From: Lacrimispora indolis DSM 755
GTDB taxonomy: Bacteria; Bacillota; Clostridia; Lachnospirales; Lachnospiraceae
Length of the DNA stretch: 64,000 bases
Assembly (NCBI RefSeq): GCF_000526995.1
Contig: NZ_AZUI01000001.1
Location: forward strand, 3,080,001 to 3,144,000
Direction: 5' to 3'
Position numbers and translations under genes: made by a program. Under the pieces are notes generated by a model. That model was given only the letters and a program-made list of their open reading frames with translations. It made no database searches and had not been told where the DNA came from. Below, one piece after another: positions 23,714-47,351 of the stretch (position 1 is its first letter; every line of letters starts with the position of its first letter).

Positions 23714-23742
23714 TTGATAAAAATATATCAATATGCGATAAT
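23714..23742 (+). promoter_or_regulatory. Promoter of the sensory-hydrogenase operon with Rex-like palindrome
   Basis: TTGATA (23714-23719), 17-nt spacer, GATAAT (23737-23742). The -35 box is the left arm of TTGATA-AAAATA-TATCAA (23714-23731), an 18-bp palindrome of the form TTGnTA-N6-TAnCAA. The clostridial Rex operator as I know it, TTGTTAANNNNTTAACAA, has the same frame. NADH/NAD-dependent repression of the hydrogenase genes would fit; this is inference. Confidence 0.5.
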
Positions 23743-24036: not shown

Positions 24037-25770
24037 ATGGGAATCATTGATTTCAAGGCTACAAAATGCAAGCACTGCTATAAATGTATCCGTAACTGTG
24101 AAGTCAAGGCTGTCATGATTAAGGATGAGCGTGCTGAGATCATGCCCGATAAGTGCATTTTATGCGGAAAATGCATGCAGGTCTGTCCCCAGTCGGCAAA
24201 AACTCTCATAAGTGATTTGGAACTGGTAAAGAGCTATATTGACGCAGGGATCCCCACAGTCATTTCCCTTGCCCCGTCTTATATGGGCTTGTTAAGCTAC
24301 CAGTCCATCGGCCAGGTAAACGGGGCCCTTAGGAAGCTGGGTTTTGCCGACGTAAGGGAGACCTCTGAGGGAGCGGCCGTTGTGACCGCGGAATATGCAA
24401 GGCTTTTAAAGGAGGGGGAGATGGAGAACATCATCACCACCTGCTGTCCCAGCGTCAACGATCTGATCGAGATTTATTATCCCCAGCTGATTCCTCATAT
24501 GGCTCCTGTGGTATCTCCTATGATTGCCCATGGAAAGATGATAAAAGAAGAAATGGGGCCTGAAGTAAAAGTGGTTTTCCTTGGGCCCTGTATTGCAAAG
24601 AAAAAGGAAGCAACGGACCCACGCCATGATGGCTATATTGATGCTGTCCTGAATTTCAATGATATTAACAGATGGCTCTCTGAAGAGGAGATCACCATTG
24701 AAGACTGCGAGGATATCCCCTTCACCAACAGGAATCCAAGGGTCAACCGCCTTTATCCGGTCACCAACGGAGTGGTGAATTCTGTTCTGGCCACGGAAGA
24801 GGAACGGGATGGATACCGGAAGTTTTATGTCCATGGCTGCCTTAACTGCATGGATCTGTGCGAAAGCATGGTGCGGGGAGGGATTAAGGGCTGCTTTATT
24901 GAGATGAATATGTGTTCCGGAGGCTGTATCAAAGGGCCTACGGTTGATGATGAAAGCGTCTCCAGATTTAAGATCAAGCTTGATATGGAGGAAACCATTG
25001 CAAAGGAACCTGTGCCATGGGAAGAACTGGACCCTGTTATGGAGCGCATTTCCTTTGGAAAGCGGTTCTTAGACCGGTCACCCAGGGAGGTCCTGCCAAC
25101 GGAAGCCCAGATCCAGCAGATACTGAAGATGACCGGAAAGATCAGGCCTGAGGATGAGTTAAACTGCGGCGCCTGCGGCTATTCTACATGCAGGGAAAAG
25201 GCTATAGCGGTTTTCCAGAAAAAGGCAGAGCTTAACATGTGCATTCCCTTTATGCATGAAAAGGCGGAATCCTTATCCAACCTGGTCATGGAGACCTCTC
25301 CGAATATTGTTTTAATTGTTGATAAAGATATGAAAATTTTAGAGTATTCTGCAGTAGGAGAACGGTATTTCGGAAAAACCAGACAGGAAGCCTTGACCAT
25401 GTATTTATATGAACTCATTGATCCTTCTGATTTCCAGTGGGTTTATCAAACCCATCAGAAGATCCATGGAAAAAAGGTGACTTATGGAGAATACCGTATT
25501 TCCACTCTCCAGAATATTTTATACATTGAAAAGGAAGATGTGGTATTGGCCACCTTCATAGACATCACCAAAGAGGAAGAACAGGCAAGACAGGAGTACG
25601 AAAAGAAGCTGGAAACCATTGATCTGGCTCAGAAGGTCATTCACAAGCAGATGATGGTAGCCCAGGAAATTGCAGGTCTTTTAGGGGAAACAACTGCGGA
25701 GACCAAGACCACGCTGACAAAGCTTTGTAAGTCCTTATTGGATGAGGGAAGTGAAAGTGAGGTCAAGTGA
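24037..25770 (+). CDS. Sensory [FeFe]-hydrogenase with PAS domain (group C, HydS-like)
   Basis: 577 residues. Order: two [4Fe-4S] clusters (Cys11/14/17/21 and 40/43/46/50), H-cluster domain (about 70-330), a further Cys377/380/385/402 [4Fe-4S] domain, a PAS domain (about 411-520) and a helical tail. H-cluster motifs are L1 TTCCP (134-138), L2 GPCIAKK (183-189, Gly for the usual Met) and L3 NMCSGGCIKG (Cys293, Cys297). The four cluster ligands and the relay Cys are kept. PAS-fused enzymes of this group are thought to sense H2 or redox state rather than make H2. It overlaps the SpoIIE-type phosphatase gene, its likely output partner. Confidence 0.92.
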   Translation: MGIIDFKATKCKHCYKCIRNCEVKAVMIKDERAEIMPDKCILCGKCMQVCPQSAKTLISDLELVKSYIDAGIPTVISLAPSYMGLLSYQSIGQVNGALRKLGFADVRETSEGAAVVTAEYARLLKEGEMENIITTCCPSVNDLIEIYYPQLIPHMAPVVSPMIAHGKMIKEEMGPEVKVVFLGPCIAKKKEATDPRHDGYIDAVLNFNDINRWLSEEEITIEDCEDIPFTNRNPRVNRLYPVTNGVVNSVLATEEERDGYRKFYVHGCLNCMDLCESMVRGGIKGCFIEMNMCSGGCIKGPTVDDESVSRFKIKLDMEETIAKEPVPWEELDPVMERISFGKRFLDRSPREVLPTEAQIQQILKMTGKIRPEDELNCGACGYSTCREKAIAVFQKKAELNMCIPFMHEKAESLSNLVMETSPNIVLIVDKDMKILEYSAVGERYFGKTRQEALTMYLYELIDPSDFQWVYQTHQKIHGKKVTYGEYRISTLQNILYIEKEDVVLATFIDITKEEEQARQEYEKKLETIDLAQKVIHKQMMVAQEIAGLLGETTAETKTTLTKLCKSLLDEGSESEVK

Positions 25771-26951
25771 TGGGAGTTACCGTAGATGTTGCATATAAAA
25801 GCCTGAATAAATTCAGAGAAGTGCTGTGCGGGGATAAGGTGGAGGTTTTACAGACCGAGGATTCCAACATCATGATCCTGGCTGACGGCATGGGCAGCGG
25901 GGTAAAGGCCAACATTCTGGCAACCATGACTTCCAAGATTCTTGGGACCATGTTTTTAAACGGCGCGACCCTGGAAGAGTGTGTGGAAACCATTGTAGAG
26001 ACTCTTCCGGTGTGTCAGGTGCGTCAGGTGGCCTATTCCACCTTCAGCATCCTCCAGGTTTTTCATGACGGAGAAGCCTATCTGGTGGAATTTGATAATC
26101 CCGGCTGTATTTTCATCCGGGACGGAAACTTAGTTTCTATTCCAAAAAACACCCGGGTGATCCGGAATAAAAGCATCAATGAATACCGTTTCAGGGTGAA
26201 AAAGGGGGATGCACTGATCCTTATGAGCGATGGGACCATCCATGCGGGGGTGGGCCAGCTTTTAAACTTTGGCTGGCTGTGGGATGACATTGCTTCCTAT
26301 GCGGTGAAGCAGTACCGTCTGACCATATCCGCGGCGCGCCTTGCTGCTGTTTTAAGCCGTGCCTGTGATGAGCTGTATCAGTATCAGCCCGGTGATGATA
26401 CCACGGTTGCCGTTATGAGGATCATTGACAGGAAGACGGTGCATTTGATGACAGGTCCTCCCAGGAAGCCGGAGGATGACAGCTGTATGGTGGAGGATTT
26501 CCTGTCAGGAGACGATACCGTCAAAAAGATCGTCTGCGGGGGAACCAGTGCCAATATTGTTTCCAGAGTGACCGAAAAAAAGCTGTCTGTCTCTCTGAAT
26601 TATAATGACCCGGATATTCCGCCTATCGCCTATATCGACGGAATTGAACTGGTTACGGAAGGTGTTTTGACCTTAAACAAGGTCTTGAAGCTTTTAAGAC
26701 GTTATGTGAAGAATGAATCCGTTACAGAGGAATTTTTCCTGGAGCTGGATAAGCCTAACGGCGCTTCCATGGTGGCGAAGATGATCATTGAGGATTGTAC
26801 GGAGCTTAACTTGTACGTGGGAAAAGCCATTAACAGCGCTTATCAGAACCCTGGCCTGCCCTTTGATTTAGGGATCCGCCAGAATCTTGTGGAGCAATTA
26901 AAACACGTAGTGGAAGAAATGGGGAAAAGGGTTACGGTAACCTATTATTAA
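25770..26951 (+). CDS. SpoIIE-family (PP2C) serine phosphatase
   Basis: 393 residues; ATG at 25770 shares its A with the TGA of the hydrogenase gene. The PP2C metal motif is ILADGMGSG (Asp39-Gly40), with later VEFDNPG, LMSDGTIHAG and GDDTTVAVMR matching the SpoIIE/RsbU class. Residues about 235-393 form an extra C-terminal region I cannot assign. Such phosphatases dephosphorylate STAS-domain anti-anti-sigma factors. Strict coupling to the PAS hydrogenase implies that gas or redox sensing controls the phosphatase. No STAS gene is present in the window. Confidence 0.92.
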   Translation: MGVTVDVAYKSLNKFREVLCGDKVEVLQTEDSNIMILADGMGSGVKANILATMTSKILGTMFLNGATLEECVETIVETLPVCQVRQVAYSTFSILQVFHDGEAYLVEFDNPGCIFIRDGNLVSIPKNTRVIRNKSINEYRFRVKKGDALILMSDGTIHAGVGQLLNFGWLWDDIASYAVKQYRLTISAARLAAVLSRACDELYQYQPGDDTTVAVMRIIDRKTVHLMTGPPRKPEDDSCMVEDFLSGDDTVKKIVCGGTSANIVSRVTEKKLSVSLNYNDPDIPPIAYIDGIELVTEGVLTLNKVLKLLRRYVKNESVTEEFFLELDKPNGASMVAKMIIEDCTELNLYVGKAINSAYQNPGLPFDLGIRQNLVEQLKHVVEEMGKRVTVTYY

Positions 26952-27006
26952 ATCAGGGCAGATATTCACACGGCCATTGAGCGTGGAAGTTACAAGGAGG
27001 AAAAAT

Positions 27007-28458
27007 ATGGCAACAAATGATGCAACATTACTTCGCATAAAGCATCAGGTATTAAATGAAGTGGCAGAGCTTGCATGGGAAGGAAAACTGGAGGAAAAAA
27101 GGAATGAGATCCCTTATAAGATCATTCCAGGCCCCAAAGCCCAGTTTCGCTGCTGCATCTACAGGGAACGGGAGATCATCAGAGAGAGAATCCGTCTGGC
27201 GGAAGGCCTCTGTCCCAGCGGAAAGGACACGAAAAATGTGGTTCAGGTCATCAGCTCGGCCTGCGAGGACTGTCCCATTACCCGGTATGTGGTAACCGAT
27301 AACTGTCAGCTGTGCATGGGCAAGGCGTGCCAGGGTTCCTGCAATTTTAATGCCATCAGCATGGGACGTGACCGTGCCTACATTGATCCGGATAAGTGCA
27401 AGGAATGCGGAAAGTGTTCTCAGGCCTGTCCTTATAACGCCATTGCCGATTTGACCCGTCCCTGCAAGAAAAGCTGCCCGGTGGATGCCATCACAATGGA
27501 TGAAAACGGCATTGTGGTCATTGACGAGAGCAAATGCATCCAGTGCGGAGCCTGCATTCACGGCTGTCCCTTTGGTGCCATTGATTCCAAGACCTTTTTG
27601 GTGGATGTCATTAACCTGATTAATGCAGGGAAACCGGTGGTAGCCATGGTCGCTCCTGCAACAGAAGGCCAATACGGTCCGGATATCACCATGGCAAGCT
27701 GGAGAACGGCTTTAAAGAAGGTGGGCTTCCAGGATATGATCGAGGTTTCCTTAGGCGGAGATCTGACCGCTGCCGCAGAAGCGGAGGAGTGGGCGATCGC
27801 CCATAAGGAAGGCAAAAAGATGACGACCTCCTGCTGTCCGGCATTTGTGAACATGATCAAGCAGCATTATCCCATGCTTCTTGAGAACATGTCCACCACC
27901 GTATCCCCCATGTGTGCCGTATCCAGAATGGTAAAGGAAAAGTACCCTGAGGTGATCACCGTATTCATTGGGCCGTGCATTGCCAAGAAGAGTGAGACCC
28001 TGGATTTGAATATTATAGACAATGCAGATTATGCCCTGACTCTGGGAGAAGTCCATGCAATGATGGAAGCAAAGGGTGTAAAGCTTGAGCCGGAGGAGAA
28101 CACTTACCAGGCGGGGTCGGTCTTTGGAAAGCGTTTTGGAAACGGAGGCGGTGTGACAGCGGCTGTTTTGGAATGCTTAAAGGAATCGGGAGAAAGTACG
28201 GACATTGAAGTACTAAAATGCAATGGGGCGGCTGAATGCAAGAAGGCCCTTATGCTGCTTAAAGTGGGCCGGCTTCCTGGAGATTTCATTGAGGGTATGG
28301 CTTGTGTAGGAGGCTGTGTAGGCGGTCCGAGCAGGTATAAGAGTGAGAACGAGGCAAAAAGAGCCCGTGACTTACTCATTGGCCAGGCAGACAAAAGGGA
28401 GGTTCATGAGAACTTAAAGAGCCAGGGACTGCAGATGGTTCCCATGCACAGGCATTGA
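27007..28458 (+). CDS. [FeFe]-hydrogenase, group B
   Basis: 483 residues from ATG at 27007 (AAGGAGG upstream). After a distinctive ~85-residue N-terminus with CCIYRERE come several cysteine clusters (about 86-190) for [4Fe-4S] centres, then the H-cluster domain: L1 TSCCPAF (274-280), L2 IGPCIAKKSE (Gly before PC), L3 EGMACVGGCVGGP (Cys433, Cys437). All ligands and the relay Cys are present, so catalysis is possible. The motif set and the lack of an NADH module fit group B. It closes the operon, 55 nt behind the phosphatase gene. Confidence 0.92.
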   Translation: MATNDATLLRIKHQVLNEVAELAWEGKLEEKRNEIPYKIIPGPKAQFRCCIYREREIIRERIRLAEGLCPSGKDTKNVVQVISSACEDCPITRYVVTDNCQLCMGKACQGSCNFNAISMGRDRAYIDPDKCKECGKCSQACPYNAIADLTRPCKKSCPVDAITMDENGIVVIDESKCIQCGACIHGCPFGAIDSKTFLVDVINLINAGKPVVAMVAPATEGQYGPDITMASWRTALKKVGFQDMIEVSLGGDLTAAAEAEEWAIAHKEGKKMTTSCCPAFVNMIKQHYPMLLENMSTTVSPMCAVSRMVKEKYPEVITVFIGPCIAKKSETLDLNIIDNADYALTLGEVHAMMEAKGVKLEPEENTYQAGSVFGKRFGNGGGVTAAVLECLKESGESTDIEVLKCNGAAECKKALMLLKVGRLPGDFIEGMACVGGCVGGPSRYKSENEAKRARDLLIGQADKREVHENLKSQGLQMVPMHRH

Positions 28459-38563: not shown

Positions 38564-40309
38564 TTAAATTTCGTTTATTTTTCTCTTTACATAGGTTGTA
38601 TGCAGCAGGTGGTGAGCCTTTTCGCTTCCAGGTTCTCCAAGGTAGGTCTCGTACAATTCCTTGATTGCAGGGTTTTCATGAGACTTACGGATGGTCTTGG
38701 CAGCGTCTTCATCATAAAGGACCTTTGCACGGAGGCTGCGGATATCGGTTGTATTGCGCACAAAGCCAGGCTGCTGAGGCTGGCCGCCGCCGTTTACACA
38801 ACCGCCGGGGCATCCCATGATCTCAATGAAATGATAGTTTGCTTCTCCGGATTTTACTCTGTTAAGGAGTTCTCTTGCATTGCCCAGGCCGGAAGCAACA
38901 GCAACATTTACATCCATGTCGCCTACCCGGTAGGAGGCTTCCTTGATTCCCTTTGTTCCGCGGACATCAGCGAAATCAGGCTTTTCAAGCTCTTCGCCTG
39001 TCAGGCTTTCCACGGCGGTTCTTAAAGCTGCTTCCATAACGCCTCCGGTAGTACCGAAGATAACGGCTGCGCCGGTACCAAGACCTAAAGGAGTGTCAAA
39101 ATCTTCATCAGGAAGCTCTGTGAACCGGATACCGGCCTGTTTGATCATCCTGGCCAGCTCTCTGGTGGTCATGGAATAGTCTACATCAGGAGAGCCGTTG
39201 GCATCCTGGTCGTCTCTGCCGATCTCAAATTTCTTAGCGGTACATGGCATGACACTGACGGATACAATTTCTTCCGGCTTTAAGCCCATCTTTTCCGCAT
39301 AATAAGATTTTGCAATAGCGCCGAACATCTGCTGCGGGGATTTACAGGAAGATAAGTTCTCTGTCATATCCGGGAAGTAGTGCTCACAGTATTTGATCCA
39401 TCCTGGAGAACAGGAGGTGATCATAGGAAGAACGCCGCCGTTTTGTACACGGTCAATGAATTCATGGGCTTCTTCCATGATGGTCAAGTCGGCGCTGAAG
39501 TTGGTATCAAATACCTTATCAAAGCCCAGCCTTCTTAAAGCGGCAACCATCTTTCCCTCCACATTGGTTCCGATGGGATAACCGAATTCCTCTCCCAGCC
39601 CTGCACGGACAGCGGGAGCGGTCTGAACGATCACATGTTTTGACCGGTCTGCGATGGCAGCAGCTACTTCGTCAATGCTGCTCTTCTCATAGAGCGCGCC
39701 GGTCGGACAGACTGCAATACACTGTCCGCAGGATACACAGCTTGTTTCCCCAAGTCCCTTTTCAAAGGCAGAACCAATGATGGTGGCAAAGCCGCGTTCA
39801 TTGGGGCCGATTACGCCGATTCCCTGAACCTTTTCACAAACAGCAGAGCAGCGGCGGCACAGGATACATTTGCTGTTGTCCCGGACCATATGGGCCGCAC
39901 TCTCATCAGGAGTGGAAGGTGTCTTAGCGCCATCGTAATAATCATCCACTTCAACGCCCAGTTCCTTGCATAAGGTCTGTAATTCGCAGTTTCCGCTGCG
40001 GATACAGGATAAACAGGAGCGGTCATGATTGGAAAGGATGAGCTGAAGGGTTTTCTTTCTGTAGTCACGCAGCTTTGGCGTGTTGGTCAATACTTCCAGA
40101 CCCGGATTAATGGGATATACGCAGGAAGCGGCCAGTCTGCCACCGTTGATTTCAACAGTACAGATACGGCAGGCAGCAATTTCATTCATATCTTTTAAAA
40201 AGCATAAGGTCGGTATCTCAACATGGGCCAGTCTGGCGGCCTCCAAAATGGTGGAGCCGGCCGGAGCGCTTACTTCCATGCCATTGATTTTTATTGTGAT
40301 ATTCTCCAT
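38564..40309 (-). CDS. hndD: NADH-linked [FeFe]-hydrogenase catalytic subunit (group A, HndD-like)
   Basis: 581 residues from ATG at 40309, where GGAGGG lies 10 nt upstream. Order: [2Fe-2S] domain (about 1-78), His-type [4Fe-4S] domain (about 80-125), two [4Fe-4S] clusters (Cys148/151/154/158 and 191/194/197/201), H-cluster domain, small-subunit-like tail. L1 reads TSCSPGW (298-304), with Ser where most have a second Cys; L2 is MPCTAKKFE and L3 IMGCPGGCVNGGGQP. It probably couples NADH and ferredoxin oxidation to H2 release together with the genes upstream. Last gene of its operon. Confidence 0.94.
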   Translation of the reverse strand: MENITIKINGMEVSAPAGSTILEAARLAHVEIPTLCFLKDMNEIAACRICTVEINGGRLAASCVYPINPGLEVLTNTPKLRDYRKKTLQLILSNHDRSCLSCIRSGNCELQTLCKELGVEVDDYYDGAKTPSTPDESAAHMVRDNSKCILCRRCSAVCEKVQGIGVIGPNERGFATIIGSAFEKGLGETSCVSCGQCIAVCPTGALYEKSSIDEVAAAIADRSKHVIVQTAPAVRAGLGEEFGYPIGTNVEGKMVAALRRLGFDKVFDTNFSADLTIMEEAHEFIDRVQNGGVLPMITSCSPGWIKYCEHYFPDMTENLSSCKSPQQMFGAIAKSYYAEKMGLKPEEIVSVSVMPCTAKKFEIGRDDQDANGSPDVDYSMTTRELARMIKQAGIRFTELPDEDFDTPLGLGTGAAVIFGTTGGVMEAALRTAVESLTGEELEKPDFADVRGTKGIKEASYRVGDMDVNVAVASGLGNARELLNRVKSGEANYHFIEIMGCPGGCVNGGGQPQQPGFVRNTTDIRSLRAKVLYDEDAAKTIRKSHENPAIKELYETYLGEPGSEKAHHLLHTTYVKRKINEI

Positions 40310-40326
40310 GATCCAATTTCCCTCCA

Positions 40327-42114
40327 TTATTTCTTGTAGACAGCGTCAAATTTACATTTCTCCATACATACGCCGCACTTGATACACTTCTCAGGATCAA
40401 TGACATGTGGGTTCTTAACGGAACCGGAGATGGCGTTCACCGGACAGTTTCTTGCACAAAGAGTACAGCCCTTACATTTCTCAGCGTCAATGTGATAGGA
40501 GAGCAGCGCTTTGCACACACCGGAAGGACATGTCTTGTTAACAATATGGGCATTGTATTCGTCGCGGAAGAACTTAAGGGTTGAAAGAACCGGGTTTGGT
40601 GCTGTCTGTCCAAGGCCGCAGGCGGAGTTTTCTTTTACGTAATAGCACAGCTCTTCCAGACGGTCTAAGTCTTCCAGCGTTGCCTGTCCCTTGGTGATCT
40701 TGTCAAGGATTTCATGCATACGCTTTGTACCGATACGGCAAGGGGTACATTTGCCGCAGGATTCTTCAACCGTGAATTCCAGGAAGAACTTGGCAATGTC
40801 AACCATACAGTCGGTTTCATCCATAACGATCAGACCGCCGGAGCCCATCATGGAGCCGATTGCAATCAGGTTGTCATAATCAATGGGAATATCGTAGTGT
40901 TCCACAGGGATACAGCCGCCGGATGGTCCTCCGGTCTGGGCAGCCTTGAATTTTTTGCCGTTTGGAATGCCGCCGCCGATCTCTTCAATGATCTCACGAA
41001 GGGTGGTTCCCATAGGAACTTCCACCAGTCCGGTGTTGTGGATTTTGCCGCCTAAAGCGAATACCTTTGTTCCCTTGGATTTCTCAGTACCCATGGAAGC
41101 GAACCATTCCGGGCCGTTTAAGATGATCTGTGGGATATTTGCATAAGTTTCAACGTTATTTAAGATGGTTGGTTTGCCGAACAGACCTTTTTGTGCCGGG
41201 AACGGAGGACGTGGCCTTGGCTCACCGCGGTTGCCTTCGATGGAAACCATGAGGGCGGTCTCTTCACCGCAGACAAATGCGCCTGCGCCTAAACGAAGAT
41301 CAATGTTAAAGGAAAATCCTGATCCAAAGATATCGTCGCCTAAAAGCTCCATCTCTCTGGCCTGATCAATGGCAATTTTTAAACGCTGTACAGCGATTGG
41401 GTACTCAGCACGCACGTAGATGTAGCCCTGGGAAGCGCCGATGGCGTAACCTGCAATAGTCATGGCCTCTAAAAGGGCATGAGGATCACCCTCTAAAACG
41501 GAACGGTCCATAAATGCGCCTGGGTCACCCTCGTCCGCGTTGCAGCAGACATATTTCTGGTCCGCATCGTTTTGGCTGGCCAGCTTCCATTTAAGGCCGG
41601 TTGGAAAGCCTGCGCCGCCTCGTCCTCTTAATCCGCTGTCTAAGAGAGCCTGGATCACTTCGCCGGGAGTCATCTCCGTAAGAACCTTTCCTAGAGCCTG
41701 GTATCCGCCGGTACCGATGTATTCTTCAATTTCCTCCGGGTTGATGACACCGCAGTTGCGCAGAGCGATCCTGTGCTGTTTTTTATAGAAATCCGTATCA
41801 CTTAAGGCCTTGATTCCTGCCGGAGTCACTGTCTCATCATAAAGCAGTCTTTCCACAGGACGTCCTTTTAATAAGTGCTCGGTTACGATTTCAGAAATAT
41901 CATCTTCCTTTACCATGGCATAGAAGGTGGCATCGGGATAAATGATCATAATGGGGCCTAAGGCACAAAGGCCGTGGCAGCCTGTCTGTACAACGGATAC
42001 TTCCTCATCCAGACCCTGTTTCTTTAATTCATCTCTTAATGTTACCATAATCTGCTGGCTTCCGGAGGAAGTACACCCTGTGCCGCCGCAAACTAATACA
42101 TGTGAACGATACAT
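40327..42114 (-). CDS. hndC: NADH-binding flavoprotein subunit (NuoF/HndC-like)
   Basis: 595 residues. N-terminal thioredoxin-like [2Fe-2S] domain (CGGTGC...TGCHGLC), FMN/NADH-binding core (GRGGAGFPTG, CNADEGDPGAF, GAGAYICGEET-like GAGAFVCGEE), a [4Fe-4S] site in ESCGKCTPCRIG, and a C-terminal two-cluster ferredoxin domain (CKGCTLCARNCP, CIKCGVCMEKC). This is the full-length flavin subunit of bifurcating hydrogenases, where NADH meets the electron chain. RBS AAGGAGG. 17 nt upstream of hndD. Confidence 0.95.
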   Translation of the reverse strand: MYRSHVLVCGGTGCTSSGSQQIMVTLRDELKKQGLDEEVSVVQTGCHGLCALGPIMIIYPDATFYAMVKEDDISEIVTEHLLKGRPVERLLYDETVTPAGIKALSDTDFYKKQHRIALRNCGVINPEEIEEYIGTGGYQALGKVLTEMTPGEVIQALLDSGLRGRGGAGFPTGLKWKLASQNDADQKYVCCNADEGDPGAFMDRSVLEGDPHALLEAMTIAGYAIGASQGYIYVRAEYPIAVQRLKIAIDQAREMELLGDDIFGSGFSFNIDLRLGAGAFVCGEETALMVSIEGNRGEPRPRPPFPAQKGLFGKPTILNNVETYANIPQIILNGPEWFASMGTEKSKGTKVFALGGKIHNTGLVEVPMGTTLREIIEEIGGGIPNGKKFKAAQTGGPSGGCIPVEHYDIPIDYDNLIAIGSMMGSGGLIVMDETDCMVDIAKFFLEFTVEESCGKCTPCRIGTKRMHEILDKITKGQATLEDLDRLEELCYYVKENSACGLGQTAPNPVLSTLKFFRDEYNAHIVNKTCPSGVCKALLSYHIDAEKCKGCTLCARNCPVNAISGSVKNPHVIDPEKCIKCGVCMEKCKFDAVYKK

Positions 42115-42126
42115 CCTGTTTCCTCC

Positions 42127-42504
42127 TTATTTGATGTCAGCTGAAGCTAACGTATAGTTTTGAACTACATGACCACCCAGTAAATGCTCCTTGTAAACTT
42201 CTTCCGCTTTTTCCGGGGTCATCTTGATATATGTAACTTTGTCTTTTCCGGGTTCCAGAATCTCAACGATCGGTTCATACTGGCATAAGCCGATGCAGCC
42301 GGTCTGAGTAACGGAAAAACGGTCTGTCATCTGATTTTCCTGAACCAGGGTTGACAATGTATTAAGAACAGGTCTTGCGCCGCTGGCAATTCCGCATGTA
42401 GCCATGCCGACCAGGATCCGTGTGCGGCCATGATCTTCACCGCGCATGCTGACCTGACCCTGCATCTTTTCACGAATTGCTTTTAATTCTTCAAGAGTCT
42501 TCAT
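42127..42504 (-). CDS. hndB: [2Fe-2S] ferredoxin subunit (HndB-like)
   Basis: 125 residues from ATG at 42504 (GGAGG at 6-nt spacing). Thioredoxin-like [2Fe-2S] fold with Cys in MATCGIASGA and QTGCIGLCQYEPIVEI. HndB-type proteins are found beside NuoE/NuoF/HndD subunits and are considered an electron-carrying part or regulator of the complex. 12 nt upstream of hndC. A second-family leader repeat lies in the gap upstream. Confidence 0.92.
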   Translation of the reverse strand: MKTLEELKAIREKMQGQVSMRGEDHGRTRILVGMATCGIASGARPVLNTLSTLVQENQMTDRFSVTQTGCIGLCQYEPIVEILEPGKDKVTYIKMTPEKAEEVYKEHLLGGHVVQNYTLASADIK

Positions 42505-42526
42505 GTTATTCCTCCAATTTTCCATA

Positions 42527-42611: not shown

Positions 42612-43169
42612 CTAAACGGCCGCGCCTCCGTCTGTTTCCAATTTGTTTTCACTAAGATATTCTCTTATGTAAGCCGATACCTCAGGGGTGTCAAAGGGGA
42701 TATCCCCTAAAATTTCCCGGAAATCTCTGGTGTCCAGCTCAAATGACGCTTGGTTATAACGATAGATATAGAGAAAGTCTGTGTCCGGATGGCAGGTGAT
42801 AAGGGTTTCAATGGTACTGTTTATATCACCAAGAGGCATGCGGTCAATATGGGACAGTCCAAAAACAGCGGTCACCGCTGTTCCTGCTCCAGGCTCCGAC
42901 TTAATGGAAAAGCTTCCGCCTGTGCTTTCCGCCGCATATTGAAAGAATGGGACGCCAAGGCCCACCTTTCTGGTTCCCCTGGTGGTAAAAAATGGATCCG
43001 TTACTTTAAGTACCTGTTCTTTTGTCATACCGCAGCCGTTGTCCTCAATGGTGACAATCAGTTTGTCTGCCTCAGTATCAACAGAAACGAGAATGGTAAC
43101 CAGGGTAGCGCCTGCCCGTGTGGAATTTTCTGCCACATCCAGAATGTTTAAAGAAATCTCTGTCATCAT
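42612..43169 (-). CDS. GHKL-type ATPase in the hydrogenase operon
   Basis: 185 residues. The histidine-kinase-type ATP site is complete: N-box DVAENSTRAGA, G1 DNGCGMTK, F-box-like DPFFTT, G2 TRKVGLGVPFF. There is no dimerisation/phosphoacceptor His domain, so it is not a normal sensor kinase. A ~65-residue C-terminal tail (about 120-185) is not recognised. It lies between hndA and hndB with short gaps, so it is expressed with the hydrogenase. A regulatory or partner-switching kinase role is inferred. Weak ribosome site; may rely on translational coupling. Confidence 0.85.
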   Translation of the reverse strand: MMTEISLNILDVAENSTRAGATLVTILVSVDTEADKLIVTIEDNGCGMTKEQVLKVTDPFFTTRGTRKVGLGVPFFQYAAESTGGSFSIKSEPGAGTAVTAVFGLSHIDRMPLGDINSTIETLITCHPDTDFLYIYRYNQASFELDTRDFREILGDIPFDTPEVSAYIREYLSENKLETDGGAAV

Positions 43170-43181
43170 AAGCGCAATTTT

Positions 43182-43676
43182 TTATTCATATTTAGCAAGA
43201 ATACCAGGAACGTCATCAGCGCTCAGCCTTCCGTAAACCTCTCCGTTCACCATCATGACGGGAGCAAGGCCACAGGCACCCACGCAGCGGCAGGAGTCAA
43301 GTGAATACTTTCCGTCCGGCGTGCATTCGCCGTTGGTAATTCCGAGAAGTTCTTCAAGCTTATGGAAGATGTCTCCGGAACCCTTTACATAGCATGCAGT
43401 TCCAAGACAGACAGATATCTGATATTTACCCTTTGGCTGAAGCGCGAACTGGGCATAAAAGGTTGCTACACCATAAATTTTCTCAAGCGGTATGCCCGTT
43501 TCGTCAGAAATCATGGTCTGGACTTCGATTGGAAGATAGCCATAAATCTCCTGCGCCTTTTGCATGATAGGCATTAGAGATCCTTTTGTGTCACTTAGCA
43601 GGGAAATTGCTTCTTTTAAAGCAGCTTCCTGCTCTTTTGTCCCGTTAAACTGGACGCCTTGTGTTTTACAAGCCAT
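43182..43676 (-). CDS. hndA: NuoE/HndA-like [2Fe-2S] subunit
   Basis: 164 residues, full NuoE length. Helical N-terminus (about 1-80) followed by a thioredoxin-like [2Fe-2S] domain with CLGTACYVKGS and CRCVGACGLAPVMMVNGEVYG. It passes electrons between the NuoF-type flavin subunit and the hydrogenase. First gene of the operon, ATG after TTAAGGAGG. Confidence 0.95.
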   Translation of the reverse strand: MACKTQGVQFNGTKEQEAALKEAISLLSDTKGSLMPIMQKAQEIYGYLPIEVQTMISDETGIPLEKIYGVATFYAQFALQPKGKYQISVCLGTACYVKGSGDIFHKLEELLGITNGECTPDGKYSLDSCRCVGACGLAPVMMVNGEVYGRLSADDVPGILAKYE

Positions 43677-43885
43677 TTGATAACCTCCTTAAATGTTGCT
43701 TATGCAATGTAACTGATATTTTAACATGTTATTGAGAAAAAATCTATAGTTTAATCAACATTCGACAAAAAAATAACAAACCCTCCGTGTAATATTTCTA
43801 TACCGGACGGACTATTTATGGTATAATCATCAATAATGGTGCGAATTGTTTGAATAGAGCGAATGAAAGAAGGGAGAGCGTCAAT
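43677..43885. promoter_or_regulatory. Divergent promoter region between hnd and hydD operons
   Basis: Plus strand: an extended -10 TGG-TATAAT (TATAAT at 43822-43827) lies 59 nt before the first DRTGG gene. TATACC (43799-43804) and GGTATA (43820-43825) form an inverted repeat over it. Minus strand: TAACATGTTA (43722-43731) is a perfect palindrome near hndA, and TTGTTA/TTGATT boxes offer possible -35 elements, none convincing. The two hydrogenase operons could be coregulated from here. Confidence 0.45.
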
Positions 43886-44233
43886 ATGACAGTAAGAGAT
43901 GTGAAAGATAAACTGGGTGCCCGGGTTCTGGCAGGTGAGGACCATTTGGATGAAGAGGTCCGGAGTGCCTGCGGTTCTGATATGATGAGTGATGTACTGG
44001 CGTTTTCCAAGGATCATTCAGTCCTGCTTACGGGACTGTGCAACCCTCAGGTAATTCGTACGGCAGAGATGTTAGACATTGTCTGTATTGTGTTTGTCAG
44101 GGGCAAGAAGCCGGATGAATCCATGCTTCAGATGGCGGAGGAGCGAGGTCTCATCATCCTGTCAACAGGACACCGCATGTTCTCGGCCTGCGGAATGCTT
44201 TATGAGGCCGGGCTTCATGGAGGTGCTATTTAA
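43886..44233 (+). CDS. DRTGG-domain protein 1
   Basis: 115 residues from ATG at 43886 (AGGGAGAG upstream). Sequence MTVRDVKDKLGARVLAGEDHL ... SDMMSDVLAFSKDHSVLLTGLCNPQVIRTAEMLDI with later ILSTGHRMFSACGMLYEAG fits the DRTGG fold (the domain also found with CBS/phosphotransacetylase partners). No catalytic residues are known for this domain; it may bind a nucleotide or a partner protein. Its stop codon overlaps the next gene (TAATG). A second DRTGG gene follows the hydrogenase-like gene. Confidence 0.85.
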   Translation: MTVRDVKDKLGARVLAGEDHLDEEVRSACGSDMMSDVLAFSKDHSVLLTGLCNPQVIRTAEMLDIVCIVFVRGKKPDESMLQMAEERGLIILSTGHRMFSACGMLYEAGLHGGAI

Positions 44234-44655
44234 TGACGGATATGATAACATTTCATTACAGCATTTCTCCCGATGATTTTACAAGGGCGGGAGAGGCCAG
44301 CAGCGATGTGAAAAGCAAGCTGAAAAAGATGGGGGTCACCCCGGAAGCTGTTCGCAAGGTGGCCATTGCCATGTATGAGGGGGAGATCAACATGGTGATT
44401 CATGCGAAAGGCGGGGACATAACCGTTAACATAACCCCGGACCGGATCGAGATGATCTTAAATGATGTTGGACCGGGAATCCCGGATATCGGCCTTGCCA
44501 TGCAGGCAGGATACTCCACTGCACCGGACGCGGTGCGTTCCCTTGGCTTTGGAGCCGGAATGGGACTTCCAAATATGAAAAAATATTCGGATGATATGGA
44601 GATCGATACAGTCATAGGAAAAGGGACGACCATTCGTATGGTGGTGAATATATAA
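44233..44655 (+). CDS. RsbW-like serine kinase / anti-sigma-type ATPase
   Basis: 140 residues, the length of RsbW/SpoIIAB proteins. N-box AMYEGEINMVIHA, G1 NDVGPGIPDIG, and G2 SLGFGAGMGLPNM show an intact GHKL ATP site without a His phosphoacceptor domain. Such proteins bind a sigma factor or phosphorylate a STAS antagonist. Its gene is coupled to DRTGG 1 and precedes the group D hydrogenase gene, implying that the output of that protein passes through this ATPase. Partner proteins are not encoded nearby. Confidence 0.88.
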   Translation: MTDMITFHYSISPDDFTRAGEASSDVKSKLKKMGVTPEAVRKVAIAMYEGEINMVIHAKGGDITVNITPDRIEMILNDVGPGIPDIGLAMQAGYSTAPDAVRSLGFGAGMGLPNMKKYSDDMEIDTVIGKGTTIRMVVNI

Positions 44656-44660
44656 AAGGC

Positions 44661-44717
44661 TTCTTCTTGGGCATACCTCTATGCCCAAAAGGCGTGGGTA
44701 ATCACACGGAAACACCC
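44661..44717 (+). repeat. 57-nt leader repeat, tandem copy a upstream of hydD
   Basis: Contains GGGCATACCTCTATGCCC, a 7-bp hairpin with a 4-nt loop, then AAAAGGCGTGGG. Begins 6 nt after the ATPase stop and is followed by a second copy at a 52-nt period. Confidence 0.75.
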
Positions 44718-44769
44718 TTCGGGTATACCTCTATGCCCAAAAGGCGTGAGCAATAATGCGGAAATGAGG
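44713..44769 (+). repeat. 57-nt leader repeat, tandem copy b upstream of hydD
   Basis: Contains GGGTATACCTCTATGCCC then AAAAGGCGTGAGCAATAAT and ends in GAGG, the ribosome site for the GTG start 7 nt later. Same register as copies at 21019 and 47295. Confidence 0.75.
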
Positions 44770-44776
44770 TAATAAA

Positions 44777-46189
44777 GTGGATAAATTTTATCATTCGGTC
44801 AGGCTTGATGAAGAGCTTTGTATGGGATGTATCAATTGCATCAAACGGTGTCCTACTCAGGCCATCAGGGTGAGAAACGGGAAGGCACAGATCAACAGTA
44901 AATTCTGCATTGACTGCGGAGAGTGCATCCGGGTATGTCCTCACCATGCAAAGCATGCCACATATGATAAGCTTGAGGTTTTAAAACAGTATGAATATAC
45001 AGTGGCCTTGCCGCCTCCATCCCTTTACAGCCAGTTTAACAATCTGGATGATGTAAATATTGTTTTAAATGCTCTTCTTATGATGGGCTTTGATGATGTA
45101 TTTGAGGTAAGCGCGGCTGCGGAGCTTGTGAGTGAGGCTACCAGGGAGTATTTAAGCGAAAATCCGGACAAGCTTCCGGCAATCAGCACTGCCTGTCCTT
45201 CTGTGGTGCGGCTCATCCGGGTCAAGTTCCCGAACCTGATCCCCAATCTGCTGCCCTTAAACCCTCCGGTGGAGGTGGCGGCTATTCTTGCAGCCCAGAG
45301 AGCCATGGAAAAGACCAGACTTGAAAGAGATAAGATCGGGATTATTTTCATTTCCCCCTGTCCTTCCAAGGTCACTTATGTGAAGTCTCCTCTTGGTACA
45401 GAGCACAGCGAAGTGGATAAGGTGCTTGCCATAAAGGATGTATATCCCAGGCTTTTATCCTGTATGAAGGCGGTGGGAGATGACCCGCCTGAGATCGGGA
45501 CTTCAGGGAAGATCGGGATCAGCTGGGGCCGGAGCGGAGGAGAGGCCAGCGGCCTGTTTACCGAGGATTATCTGGCTGCAGATGGCATTGAAAATGTCAT
45601 CCGGGTCCTGGAGGATATGGAGGACCAGAAATTTACCAATTTAAAATTTGTGGAGCTTAATGCCTGCAACGGCGGCTGCGTGGGCGGCGTGCTCACGGTG
45701 GAAAACCCCTATGTGGCGGAGGTGAAGCTGAAACGGCTCCGGAAGTACATGCCTGTGGCAAGGAGCCACATGCAGGCAGGAGCAGAAGAACTGGTAAAGT
45801 GGACCAAGGAGGTCCAGTATGAGCCGGTGTTTAATTTAGGCGAAACCATGATGGAAAGCTTTGCAAGGCTTAATCAGGTGGAACGGCTGTTAAAGAAGCT
45901 TCCCGGCTTAGACTGCGGTTCCTGCGGAGCGCCTACCTGCAAGGCCCTGGCAGAAGACATTGTACGGGGAGAGGCAGTAGAATCGGACTGCGTTTATTTC
46001 CTCAGGGACAATGTGCATAAGCTGTCAGAGGAGGTTTCCAGGCTGGCGGCCGATATTGTGGAAGGCGACAGTGAAAGCTATGAAAAGTTTAAGGTCATGA
46101 CAAAGTACATCCAGAGAATTTCTGATGAAATGACTCAGCTTGACAGAAAAGACGGGAGGAAACAAAATGACGATAAGAGAATTGATTGA
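44777..46189 (+). CDS. Group D [FeFe]-hydrogenase-like protein (putative sensory)
   Basis: 470 residues, GTG start after GAGGT. Two [4Fe-4S] clusters (Cys15/18/21/25 and 44/47/50/54), H-cluster-like domain, then a C-terminal Cys380/383/388/405 [4Fe-4S] domain and a helical tail. L1 is STACPS (Ala for the proton-relay Cys, ligand Cys140 kept), L2 SPCPSKVTY (Ser for Met, Cys195), L3 ELNACNGGCVGG (Cys297, Cys301). All four cluster ligands are kept while catalytic second-sphere residues differ, as reported for the Thermoanaerobacter HydS. This fits H2/redox sensing rather than turnover. Confidence 0.9.
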   Translation: MDKFYHSVRLDEELCMGCINCIKRCPTQAIRVRNGKAQINSKFCIDCGECIRVCPHHAKHATYDKLEVLKQYEYTVALPPPSLYSQFNNLDDVNIVLNALLMMGFDDVFEVSAAAELVSEATREYLSENPDKLPAISTACPSVVRLIRVKFPNLIPNLLPLNPPVEVAAILAAQRAMEKTRLERDKIGIIFISPCPSKVTYVKSPLGTEHSEVDKVLAIKDVYPRLLSCMKAVGDDPPEIGTSGKIGISWGRSGGEASGLFTEDYLAADGIENVIRVLEDMEDQKFTNLKFVELNACNGGCVGGVLTVENPYVAEVKLKRLRKYMPVARSHMQAGAEELVKWTKEVQYEPVFNLGETMMESFARLNQVERLLKKLPGLDCGSCGAPTCKALAEDIVRGEAVESDCVYFLRDNVHKLSEEVSRLAADIVEGDSESYEKFKVMTKYIQRISDEMTQLDRKDGRKQNDDKRID

Positions 46190-46517
46190 CAGCAATTTGT
46201 TTGAACTTGTAAATGCAGGAGAAGAGCTTGACCGTGAGATCAAAAAACCGTTTTGCTGCGATTTATTAAGCATTGCAATGGGAAGGGCAACTGAGGGGTG
46301 CGCATGGGTAACGGTGATGGGTAACATAAATACTCTTGCAGTGGCCTCTCTTGCCGACGCTGCCTGTGTGATCATGGCAGAAGGGGCTGCTCTTGACGAA
46401 GCAGCCGTAAAAAAGGCAGCGGATCAGGAGATCACGGTTTTAAAAACAGAGCTGCCCATCTTTGAGGCCGCCCTGCTGGTCTACCAAAGACTGCCCCATG
46501 ATGAATCTGACCTATGA
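46167..46517 (+). CDS. DRTGG-domain protein 2
   Basis: 116 residues; ATG at 46167 lies inside the end of the hydrogenase-like gene with GGGAGG in front. MTIRELIDSNLFELVNAGEEL then KPFCCDLLSIAMGRATEGCAW, and the later VASLADAACVIMAEGAALDE match the DRTGG fold and the first DRTGG protein in the operon. It overlaps the PHP gene. Function unknown, presumably a signalling partner. Confidence 0.85.
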   Translation: MTIRELIDSNLFELVNAGEELDREIKKPFCCDLLSIAMGRATEGCAWVTVMGNINTLAVASLADAACVIMAEGAALDEAAVKKAADQEITVLKTELPIFEAALLVYQRLPHDESDL

Positions 46518-47229
46518 TCTTCACATTCATTCCTGCTTATCACCGTGCGGGGATGATGATATGACACCGGCAAATATTGTGGGAATGGCTGCCTTAAAAG
46601 GGCTTGACGTGATCGCTGTGACGGATCATAATTCCTGTAAAAACTGTCCGGCTGTGCTTCATTTTGCAGAGGAATACGGGATCCTTGCAGTGCCTGGAAT
46701 GGAAATCTGTACTTCTGAGGAGGTACATGCGGTATGCTTGTTTTCCAGCCTTGAAAGGGCAATGGAATTTGATGAATACGTGTATGAACGGCTGCTGCCT
46801 TTCCCCAATAATGAGGAAATATTTGGAAAGCAGCAGATATATAATAAGGAAGATGTAGTATGCGGGACAGTGCCAAATCTTCTTATTAACAGCGTGGATA
46901 TCTCCTTTGATGAACTGTGGGATCTGGTAAGGTCTTATGAAGGTGTTATGTTTCCGGCTCATATTGACAGGTCAGCCAACAGCCTGCTCTCCAACTTAGG
47001 ATTTGTGCCTCCTGGCAGCCAGTTTGCCACGGCAGAGGTAAAGGATCTTACGAAACTTCATGAGCTGAGGAAAAGGAACCCATATCTGGAGGGCTGCCGG
47101 ATCATAAGCAATTCCGATGCCCACTATCTGGAGGACATTCATGAGCCCAGGCTAACCGTAGAGGCAGAGGAAAAAACCATGGATGCAGTTGTCCGGGCTC
47201 TGCTGCACCACCAGAACTTTTTTATTTAA
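46498..47229 (+). CDS. PHP-domain metal-dependent phosphoesterase
   Basis: 243 residues from ATG at 46498, overlapping the DRTGG gene (a second ATG follows directly). Metal motifs in order: DLHIHSCLSPCGDDDM, AVTDHNSCKNC, GMEICTSEE, PAHIDRS and SNSDAHYLEDIHEP. This is the polymerase/histidinol-phosphatase fold with a trinuclear metal site; it may hydrolyse a nucleotide or a phospho-signal. Position as last gene of the group D hydrogenase operon suggests that it makes or removes a signal molecule; substrate unknown. Confidence 0.88.
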   Translation: MMNLTYDLHIHSCLSPCGDDDMTPANIVGMAALKGLDVIAVTDHNSCKNCPAVLHFAEEYGILAVPGMEICTSEEVHAVCLFSSLERAMEFDEYVYERLLPFPNNEEIFGKQQIYNKEDVVCGTVPNLLINSVDISFDELWDLVRSYEGVMFPAHIDRSANSLLSNLGFVPPGSQFATAEVKDLTKLHELRKRNPYLEGCRIISNSDAHYLEDIHEPRLTVEAEEKTMDAVVRALLHHQNFFI

Positions 47230-47294: not shown

Positions 47295-47351
47295 TACCCT
47301 GAGGCTATACCTCTATGCCCAAAAAGCATGGGCAGTAATAAGGAAAGGAGA
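47295..47351 (+). repeat. 57-nt leader repeat, copy upstream of the deacetylase gene
   Basis: GGCTATACCTCTATGCCC followed by AAAAAGCATGGGCAGTAAT and ending in AAAGGAGA, the ribosome site, 8 nt before the start codon. Same alignment as copies at 21019, 44661 and 44713. Confidence 0.75.

Follow-up and report, generated by a model that had tools for sequence, protein, structure and literature searches.

A stretch of 64,000 nucleotides (nt) from the closed, 6.38 Mb genome of Lacrimispora indolis DSM 755 (contig NZ_AZUI01000001.1, positions 3,080,001 to 3,144,000; hereafter the window) contains a group D [FeFe] hydrogenase flanked by four other genes, which raises the question of whether the five form a single system and, if they do, of what kind. 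The genes occupy 43886–47229 on the forward strand and encode, in order, a DRTGG domain protein (DRTGG1), a GHKL ATPase (HATP1), the hydrogenase, a second DRTGG protein (DRTGG2) and a PHP-family phosphoesterase (PHP), as called from open reading frames and Pfam. All are intact and co-oriented, and a first-pass annotation, made from the DNA letters alone, had the content and position of this five-gene operon right. A sixth gene, HATP2, encodes a second GHKL ATPase; it lies outside the five on the opposite strand, and travels with the PHP module. We describe below a gene group that is real, widely conserved and linked by gene fusions. As to its function, we see about an even chance that the five genes and HATP2 would constitute an H2-responsive signalling module, with the hydrogenase as putative sensor subunit.

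Co-occurrence and gene order

Occurrence was analysed in 398 genomes of the phylum, using E-value cut-offs of 1e-40 for the hydrogenase (where matches at the weak end, such as that of G327 at 1e-41, are possibly not group D), 1e-20 for HATP1, 1e-30 for PHP and 1e-25 for HATP2. The analysis found the hydrogenase in 165 genomes, HATP1 in 172, PHP in 157 and HATP2 in 173. These genes keep close company: the 165 genomes with a hydrogenase include 163 with HATP1, 152 with PHP and 158 with HATP2, compared with 9, 5 and 15 respectively of the 233 genomes that lack it (Fisher p < 1e-80, a test that ignores shared ancestry). The first-pass annotation had named a lack of conserved co-occurrence as grounds for refuting its proposal; the co-occurrence observed is instead very strong. 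The hydrogenase matches span 104 of the 271 sampled genera. HATP2 is present in 155 of the 157 PHP genomes; five of the 15 genomes that have HATP2 and no hydrogenase (G005, G034, G121, G190 and G366) lack HATP1 and PHP too at these cut-offs, and HATP2 is therefore the least tightly bound part. HydB does not mark the bifurcating enzyme specifically and served only as a control; proteins like it are present in 347 of the 398 genomes, and the module therefore follows the sensor rather than complexes of the bifurcating type.

Gene order was compared in 121 loci, consisting of the window and 120 loci fetched at ±8 kb; the matches left out mostly lay close to contig ends or scored low, and lower-scoring group D loci are under-sampled in this set, which was drawn from a match list cut at its lower end. 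A second set holds the best 80 loci with named records, whose titles are nearly all from Clostridia, with one from Anaerolineaceae, and 21 further stretches, picked for their odd appearance, stand outside the 121. The strict order DRTGG1-HATP1-hydrogenase-DRTGG2-PHP is found in 75 of the 121 loci, a count that scores loci with a DRTGG1-HATP1 fusion as lacking DRTGG1, and in 72 of the best 80 named loci. The hydrogenase directly follows HATP1 in 116 of the 121. The 46 loci that depart from the strict order comprise 13 with DRTGG1-HATP1 fusions, two with hydrogenase-DRTGG2 fusions, and 31 without one or more parts. In two stretches (L246 and L247) the group D hydrogenase occurs as two adjacent frames between an intact HATP1 and an intact DRTGG2, reflecting either a sequencing error or a real split.

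The genes are tightly packed. Spacings in other genomes were taken from mechanical open reading frames that begin at the first start codon, and have a median of −4 nt for DRTGG1-HATP1 (85 pairs), hydrogenase-DRTGG2 (109) and DRTGG2-PHP (99); the median for HATP1-hydrogenase is 13 nt (116 loci, window included), with the first-start frames biasing gaps downwards. In the window, DRTGG1 and HATP1 overlap by one base (TAATG), the hydrogenase and DRTGG2 by 23 nt, and DRTGG2 and PHP by 17 nt, or by 20 nt with a PHP start at 46498. The first-pass annotation had listed the same genes and these three overlaps; the near-overlap that it had also given for HATP1 and the hydrogenase does not hold, as these two genes are 121 nt apart. 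The gap is filled by two copies of a dispersed intergenic repeat, which has 66 matches in the genome (at most 3 mismatches; none for a reversed control pattern) and a tandem spacing of 52 nt. Repeat copies in the window, at 44665–44770 and about 47300–47340, are placed just 5′ of start codons.

Gene fusions and exchange of the sensor

Four kinds of fusion join parts of the module. DRTGG1 is fused to HATP1 in 13 loci, and for one such protein all 120 of the matches listed cover at least 96% of its length, including two named from Desulfobacterota and Aminicenantales. HATP1 is fused to the hydrogenase in L255 (626 residues) and L256 (601 residues), which belong to two genera of one family. The hydrogenase is fused to DRTGG2 in L079 and L102; 15 of the 120 matches listed for the L079 protein cover at least 99% of it, and 13 of these 15 have a DRTGG call. 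Finally, five loci, all from one family, have a PHP-HATP2 fusion. By established practice, these fusions suggest that the fused neighbours work together.

HATP1 is also found joined to a different input. It is fused to CBS domains in 10 frames (two confirmed with Pfam), and in five stretches (L236, L238, L240, L242 and L245) a core of DRTGG-CBS/HATP1-DRTGG-PHP-HATP2 occurs with no hydrogenase in the stretch. A hydrogenase is present elsewhere in the genomes of L240 and L242, and there is no match in those of L236, L238 and L245. That all long HATP1 frames are CBS fusions was ruled out, the 27 frames of at least 240 residues comprising 13 DRTGG1-HATP1, 10 CBS, one HATP1-hydrogenase and three with an unassigned extension.

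Conserved residues of the hydrogenase

The first-pass annotation had described a hydrogenase with all four H-cluster ligands and alanine at the proton-relay position, like the characterised group D enzyme, and both features are borne out. The ligands C140, C195, C297 and C301 are each kept in at least 200 of 201 relatives. The position of the proton-relay cysteine (Cys299) is occupied by Ala139; among the 200 relatives with a letter at this position there are 158 with A, 36 with S, three with T and one each with N, V and H, and none has the relay cysteine of group A type. Ser193 takes the position of Met353 (S in 128, T in 71 and A in 2 of 201). The protein has two N-terminal 4Fe-4S motifs and the C-terminal motif Cx2Cx4Cx16C (C380, C383, C388 and C405), and no PAS domain according to Pfam, which does find one in the group C hydrogenase of the window (24037–25770). 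A pair of glutamates has been proposed for the group D proton path (E252 and E289 of TamHydS, from the accessible part of PMC10407848); matched by eye, the equivalents are E256, kept in 196 of 201, and E293, kept in all 201.

The 25 group D rows of a 37-row tree are split from the group A, B and C enzymes of the window by a branch with 100/100 support; some of the rows outside group D have long branches. The protein is 97% identical to a hydrogenase named from Lacrimispora brassicae. As judged from its sequence, the enzyme has every group D feature that was tested, as the features are given in the accessible part of PMC8163306. The name HydD, used in the first-pass annotation, conflicts with hydABCD as applied to the bifurcating enzyme in the accessible text of PMC11837493.

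Conserved residues of the ATPases, DRTGG proteins and PHP

HATP1 is a stand-alone HATPase_c_2 domain with an intact predicted ATP site, and is closest in sequence and fold to the SpoIIAB kinase. Its best solved relatives are SpoIIAB (1til and 1l0o) and then RsbW, and it scores below the curated cut-offs for both. It is one of three HATPase_c_2 matches above cut-off in its own genome. Residues E49, N53, D78, G80 and G82, which we take to form the E-x-x-x-N, G1 and G2 motifs, are kept in 195 of 195 sequences. Within HATP2, D11, N15, D43, G45 and G47 are kept in at least 178 of 180, and for nine predicted metal ligands of PHP the figure is at least 176 of 178; the roles assigned to these residues are likewise presumed from family knowledge. 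Pfam finds no HisKA phosphoacceptor domain in HATP1 or HATP2, which places neither among two-component kinases.

DRTGG2 is homologous to DRTGG1 (26% identity, E 6e-12). The serine of a D-x-x-S motif is invariant in 198 of 198 DRTGG1-class and 202 of 202 DRTGG2-class domains; it is S47 in DRTGG1, numbered from the frame starting at 43850, and is no more than a candidate phosphorylation site. The DRTGG family has three matches in the genome, two being those described here and the third lying in a 565-residue frame that is probably a CBS pyrophosphatase. The predicted model of a DRTGG1-HATP1 fusion resembles both SpoIIAB and the DRTGG protein AF_1212.

Neighbouring genes

The features of the locus are collected in Table 1. 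The divergent operon beside the module encodes a bifurcating hydrogenase, and HydB is found within the stretch at 101 of the 121 loci (93 downstream on the same strand and 8 divergent as in the window, with 20 absent). Among the best 80 named loci, 52 have HydB divergent, 11 have it downstream on the same strand, one has it upstream and 16 lack it.

Table 1. Features of the group D hydrogenase locus and the adjoining operon (positions in the window)
Feature	Position	Strand	Basis
DRTGG1, stand-alone DRTGG domain, 115 residues	43886..44233	+	PF07085, 30.6 bits, above cut-off
HATP1, SpoIIAB/RsbW-type GHKL ATPase, predicted protein serine kinase, 140 residues	44233..44655	+	PF13581, 40.4 bits, above cut-off
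Dispersed repeat, two tandem copies in the HATP1-hydrogenase gap	~44665..44770	+	pattern at 44673 and 44725, 52 nt spacing
Group D (M2e) [FeFe] hydrogenase, HydS type, 470 residues, GTG start	44777..46189	+	PF02906, two N-terminal 4Fe-4S, PF04060 FeS, no PAS
DRTGG2, 116 residues	46167..46517	+	PF07085, 22.4 bits, below the 25.2-bit cut-off; homologous to DRTGG1
PHP-family metallo-phosphoesterase, 242 residues	46501..47229	+	PF02811, 32.7 bits, above cut-off
HATP2, second GHKL ATPase, within the divergent hydABC operon	42612..43169	-	PF02518
HydC/NuoE-like subunit, bifurcating hydrogenase operon; likely target or neighbour	43182..43676	-	PF01257
Thioredoxin-like [2Fe-2S] ferredoxin, bifurcating hydrogenase operon	42127..42525	-	PF01257, 30.8 bits
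HydB, NADH-binding subunit	40327..42114	-	open reading frame; name from operon position and homology
HydA, group A [FeFe] hydrogenase, NADH-dependent type	38564..40327	-	NCBIfam NF040763, 902.8 bits (cut-off 765)

The module also adjoins rnf genes. In L237 and L239 DRTGG and CBS/HATP1 genes are followed by a gene for a thioredoxin-like ferredoxin and then by rnfC, rnfD, rnfE and rnfA, and in L143 and L150 the hydrogenase-containing core leads into rnf. Matches to RnfD turn up in 12 of the 221 stretches, and matches to RnfC, which were not individually checked, in 27. A third neighbour, found in 30 of the 221 stretches, is a gene that we take to be Rex-like from its two Pfam domains and from general knowledge of the family. 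In 12 of the 13 fusion loci this gene and the one for DRTGG1-HATP1 share 1 or 4 nt, and in L250–L252 and L254 it adjoins DRTGG-DRTGG-PHP-HATP2.

The intergenic region of the window between the two operons (43677–43885) has no Rex operator with three or fewer mismatches. Across the whole window there are 17 Rex-box-like sites at this threshold compared with 4.9 expected, one of them at 23714, before the group C gene. A Rex site has been predicted 5′ of a “PHP domain protein” in Thermoanaerobacterium saccharolyticum (accessible text of PMC5886521), which may or may not be the PHP of this module. A promoter scan of the same intergenic region gave one −35/−10-like pair at 43721–43750 (10/12 matches), a weak signal with 11 matches against 5.1 in shuffles.

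Other [FeFe] hydrogenases are found in the window and elsewhere. At 24037–28458 (+) the PAS-containing group C hydrogenase is followed by a SpoIIE-type phosphatase and then by a third [FeFe] hydrogenase, an arrangement of HydDB type C3. The L1 motif of this group C enzyme, TTCCPS, seemingly keeps the relay cysteine, unlike the published description of that subclass in the text accessible to us. Further hydrogenases adjoin the HATP1-group D pair in L068 (5941–7854, −) and L122 (5827–7740, −), that of L068 having a chemotaxis-receptor signalling domain that fits HydDB C2, and the group D operon in L079 (12406–14709, −) and L102 (12638–14974, −), that of L079 having PAS, HisKA and HATPase domains that fit HydDB C1.

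Proposed mechanism and alternatives

The first-pass annotation had outlined a gas- or redox-signalling pathway. This agrees with the links to hydABC, rnf and rex, and the fusions suggest that the parts work together. Given the observed gene content and order, co-occurrence, fusions and conserved predicted catalytic residues, we can propose how an H2-responsive module might operate. The hydrogenase would be held between HATP1 and DRTGG2, with DRTGG1 docking on HATP1. H2, or the electron state of the clusters, would alter the shape of the hydrogenase and so gate HATP1, which in one state would phosphorylate a partner protein, the simplest candidates being the DRTGG proteins, with their invariant serine as the site. 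PHP, together with HATP2, would reverse the phosphorylation or clear the signal. The output may tune the adjacent ferredoxin/NAD complexes, which are the bifurcating hydrogenase here and Rnf elsewhere, often with Rex. From the fusions we infer a physical complex of the module's parts; the kinase and phosphatase roles are presumed from what is known of the families, and we likewise infer phosphorylation, its target, the substrate of PHP and the role of H2 as the signal. Whether the enzyme is a sensor and not a producer is a question of rate, because the characterised group D enzyme both produces and oxidises H2, slowly (accessible parts of PMC8163306 and PMC10407848).

Several findings weigh against this mechanism. 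Pfam finds no STAS antagonist among the five genes (the genome beyond them was not searched for STAS), and there is no PP2C (SpoIIE-type) phosphatase among them, with PHP in its place. The module is therefore not a classical partner switch; the SpoIIE-type gene that accompanies the group C hydrogenase is 18 kb distant. Proteins of solved structure that are related to PHP belong to the nucleases and phosphoesterases rather than to the protein phosphatases. According to the accessible part of PMC13104023, H2 does not reduce the C-terminal cluster of the characterised group D enzyme. The predicted structures of two natural fusions (predicted TM-scores, pTM, of 0.77 and 0.59) have confident domains joined by low-confidence linkers, with packing that is not fixed. 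Lastly, 31 of the 121 loci lack some parts beside the hydrogenase even when fusions are allowed for: PHP is missing in L072, L091, L126 and L132, and DRTGG1 in several others; L110, L140 and L141 have hydrogenase-DRTGG with hydABC genes and neither HATP1 nor PHP; and some loci have only the HATP1-hydrogenase pair or a lone hydrogenase (for example L068, L075, L093, L094, L099, L103 and L122). In the five lone-pair genomes that were inspected (L250–L254), DRTGG-DRTGG-PHP-HATP2 is located elsewhere in the genome.

The strongest rival to an H2 switch puts an adenine-nucleotide messenger in place of protein phosphorylation: the DRTGG and CBS domains would bind the nucleotide (AMP, ATP, Ap4A or pAp), PHP would degrade it, and the ATPases would be regulators. 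DRTGG1 and DRTGG2 weakly resemble the CBS/DRTGG regulatory region in the pyrophosphatase of Clostridium perfringens; structures of that region with AMP and with Ap4A have reportedly been determined, going by the title of a reference. In the 10 frames described above, the input side of HATP1 has CBS pairs added to it or in its place, and the families nearest to PHP are nucleases, 3′,5′-nucleoside bisphosphate phosphatase and RNase-type enzymes, all with scores below their cut-offs. However, the five genes include no messenger-making enzyme, and HATP1 is most similar to a protein kinase. We regard a messenger as possible but unlikely.

A further alternative is that the ATPases, DRTGG proteins and PHP assist in assembling or repairing HydABC, Rnf and the group D enzyme, in place of signalling. 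A chaperone-like role is possible for GHKL ATPases, and the proximity of HydB in 101 of 121 loci, and of rnf in some, would suit such helpers. The spread of HydB-like proteins (347 genomes, against 172 with HATP1 and 157 with PHP) argues that such complexes are made without the module, and the likeness of HATP1 to SpoIIAB and the exchange of CBS and hydrogenase inputs on it also count against helpers; we consider the idea improbable. More improbable still is a hydrogenase that turns over H2 slowly in a housekeeping role, with neighbours that are only co-regulated. In favour of this, its characterised relative catalyses H2 production and oxidation (accessible part of PMC8163306) and some loci keep it with few or no neighbours; against it stand the four kinds of fusion, the near-complete co-occurrence, the matches in 104 of 271 sampled genera and the relay cysteine of group A type in none of 200 sequences.

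More broadly, and tentatively, since we put it a little short of an even chance, the locus may exemplify a signalling architecture of anaerobes that the papers searched do not describe: a core of DRTGG, GHKL kinase, DRTGG, PHP and second ATPase in which the sensor can be either an H-cluster hydrogenase or CBS domains. Together with Rex, this core would use reversible phosphorylation to set the ferredoxin/NADH complexes HydABC and Rnf, and would do so with no STAS, PP2C or two-component proteins. The position of the core beside rnf and rex suggests a common layer of control for anaerobic energy metabolism, and H2 sensing is relevant to what gut, rumen and biofuel bacteria produce by fermentation.

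Comparison with known systems

Our literature searches found nothing linking DRTGG or PHP to group D, although an earlier mention of some of the neighbours is possible, for example in Calusinska 2010. Biochemical work has treated group D enzymes as putative H2 sensors. A 2026 paper (PMC13104023, accessible part) states that the interaction partners of group D remain to be identified and calls this critical; the fusions name testable partners for the putative H2 sensor. The hydrogenase of the window resembles TamHydS of Thermoanaerobacter mathranii (group D/M2e; accessible part of PMC8163306) in domain order, in the relay alanine, in serine at the Met353 position, in the Cx2Cx4Cx16C motif and in having no PAS domain. 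In L044, the residues around the two mutated glutamates equal those in the primers given in the accessible part of PMC10407848. This locus has the full DRTGG-HATP1-hydrogenase-DRTGG-PHP order, and both of the small genes flanking the hydrogenase region match DRTGG only. Published group D neighbours, in the text accessible to us, are a histidine-kinase(-like) gene and an AraC-type gene; our guess is that the “AraC” neighbour is a DRTGG protein. The bifurcating operon of Thermoanaerobacter (PMC3608648; Verbeke 2013) is preceded by a group D-like gene and one for a histidine kinase, which is the same neighbourhood, but its accessible text makes no mention of DRTGG or PHP.

HATP1 shares its fold and motifs with the SpoIIAB/RsbW kinases, and differs in its setting, which has no STAS or PP2C protein among the five genes. 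The DRTGG fold is common to the CBS/DRTGG region of family II pyrophosphatase and to AF_1212, whereas here the domains stand alone; in the AF_1212 alignment, the invariant aspartate and serine of the module's DRTGG domains have no equivalent.

A further parallel is with the group C hydrogenases C1 (histidine kinase), C2 (chemotaxis) and C3 (phosphatase) of HydDB, which are likewise putative H2 sensors with an output module (accessible part of PMC5037454, in which the term “group D” does not appear). Group C differs in its PAS domain and in its outputs. The group D locus pairs a putative sensory hydrogenase with an output module of another kind than in group C, and the core of that module also exists without a hydrogenase.

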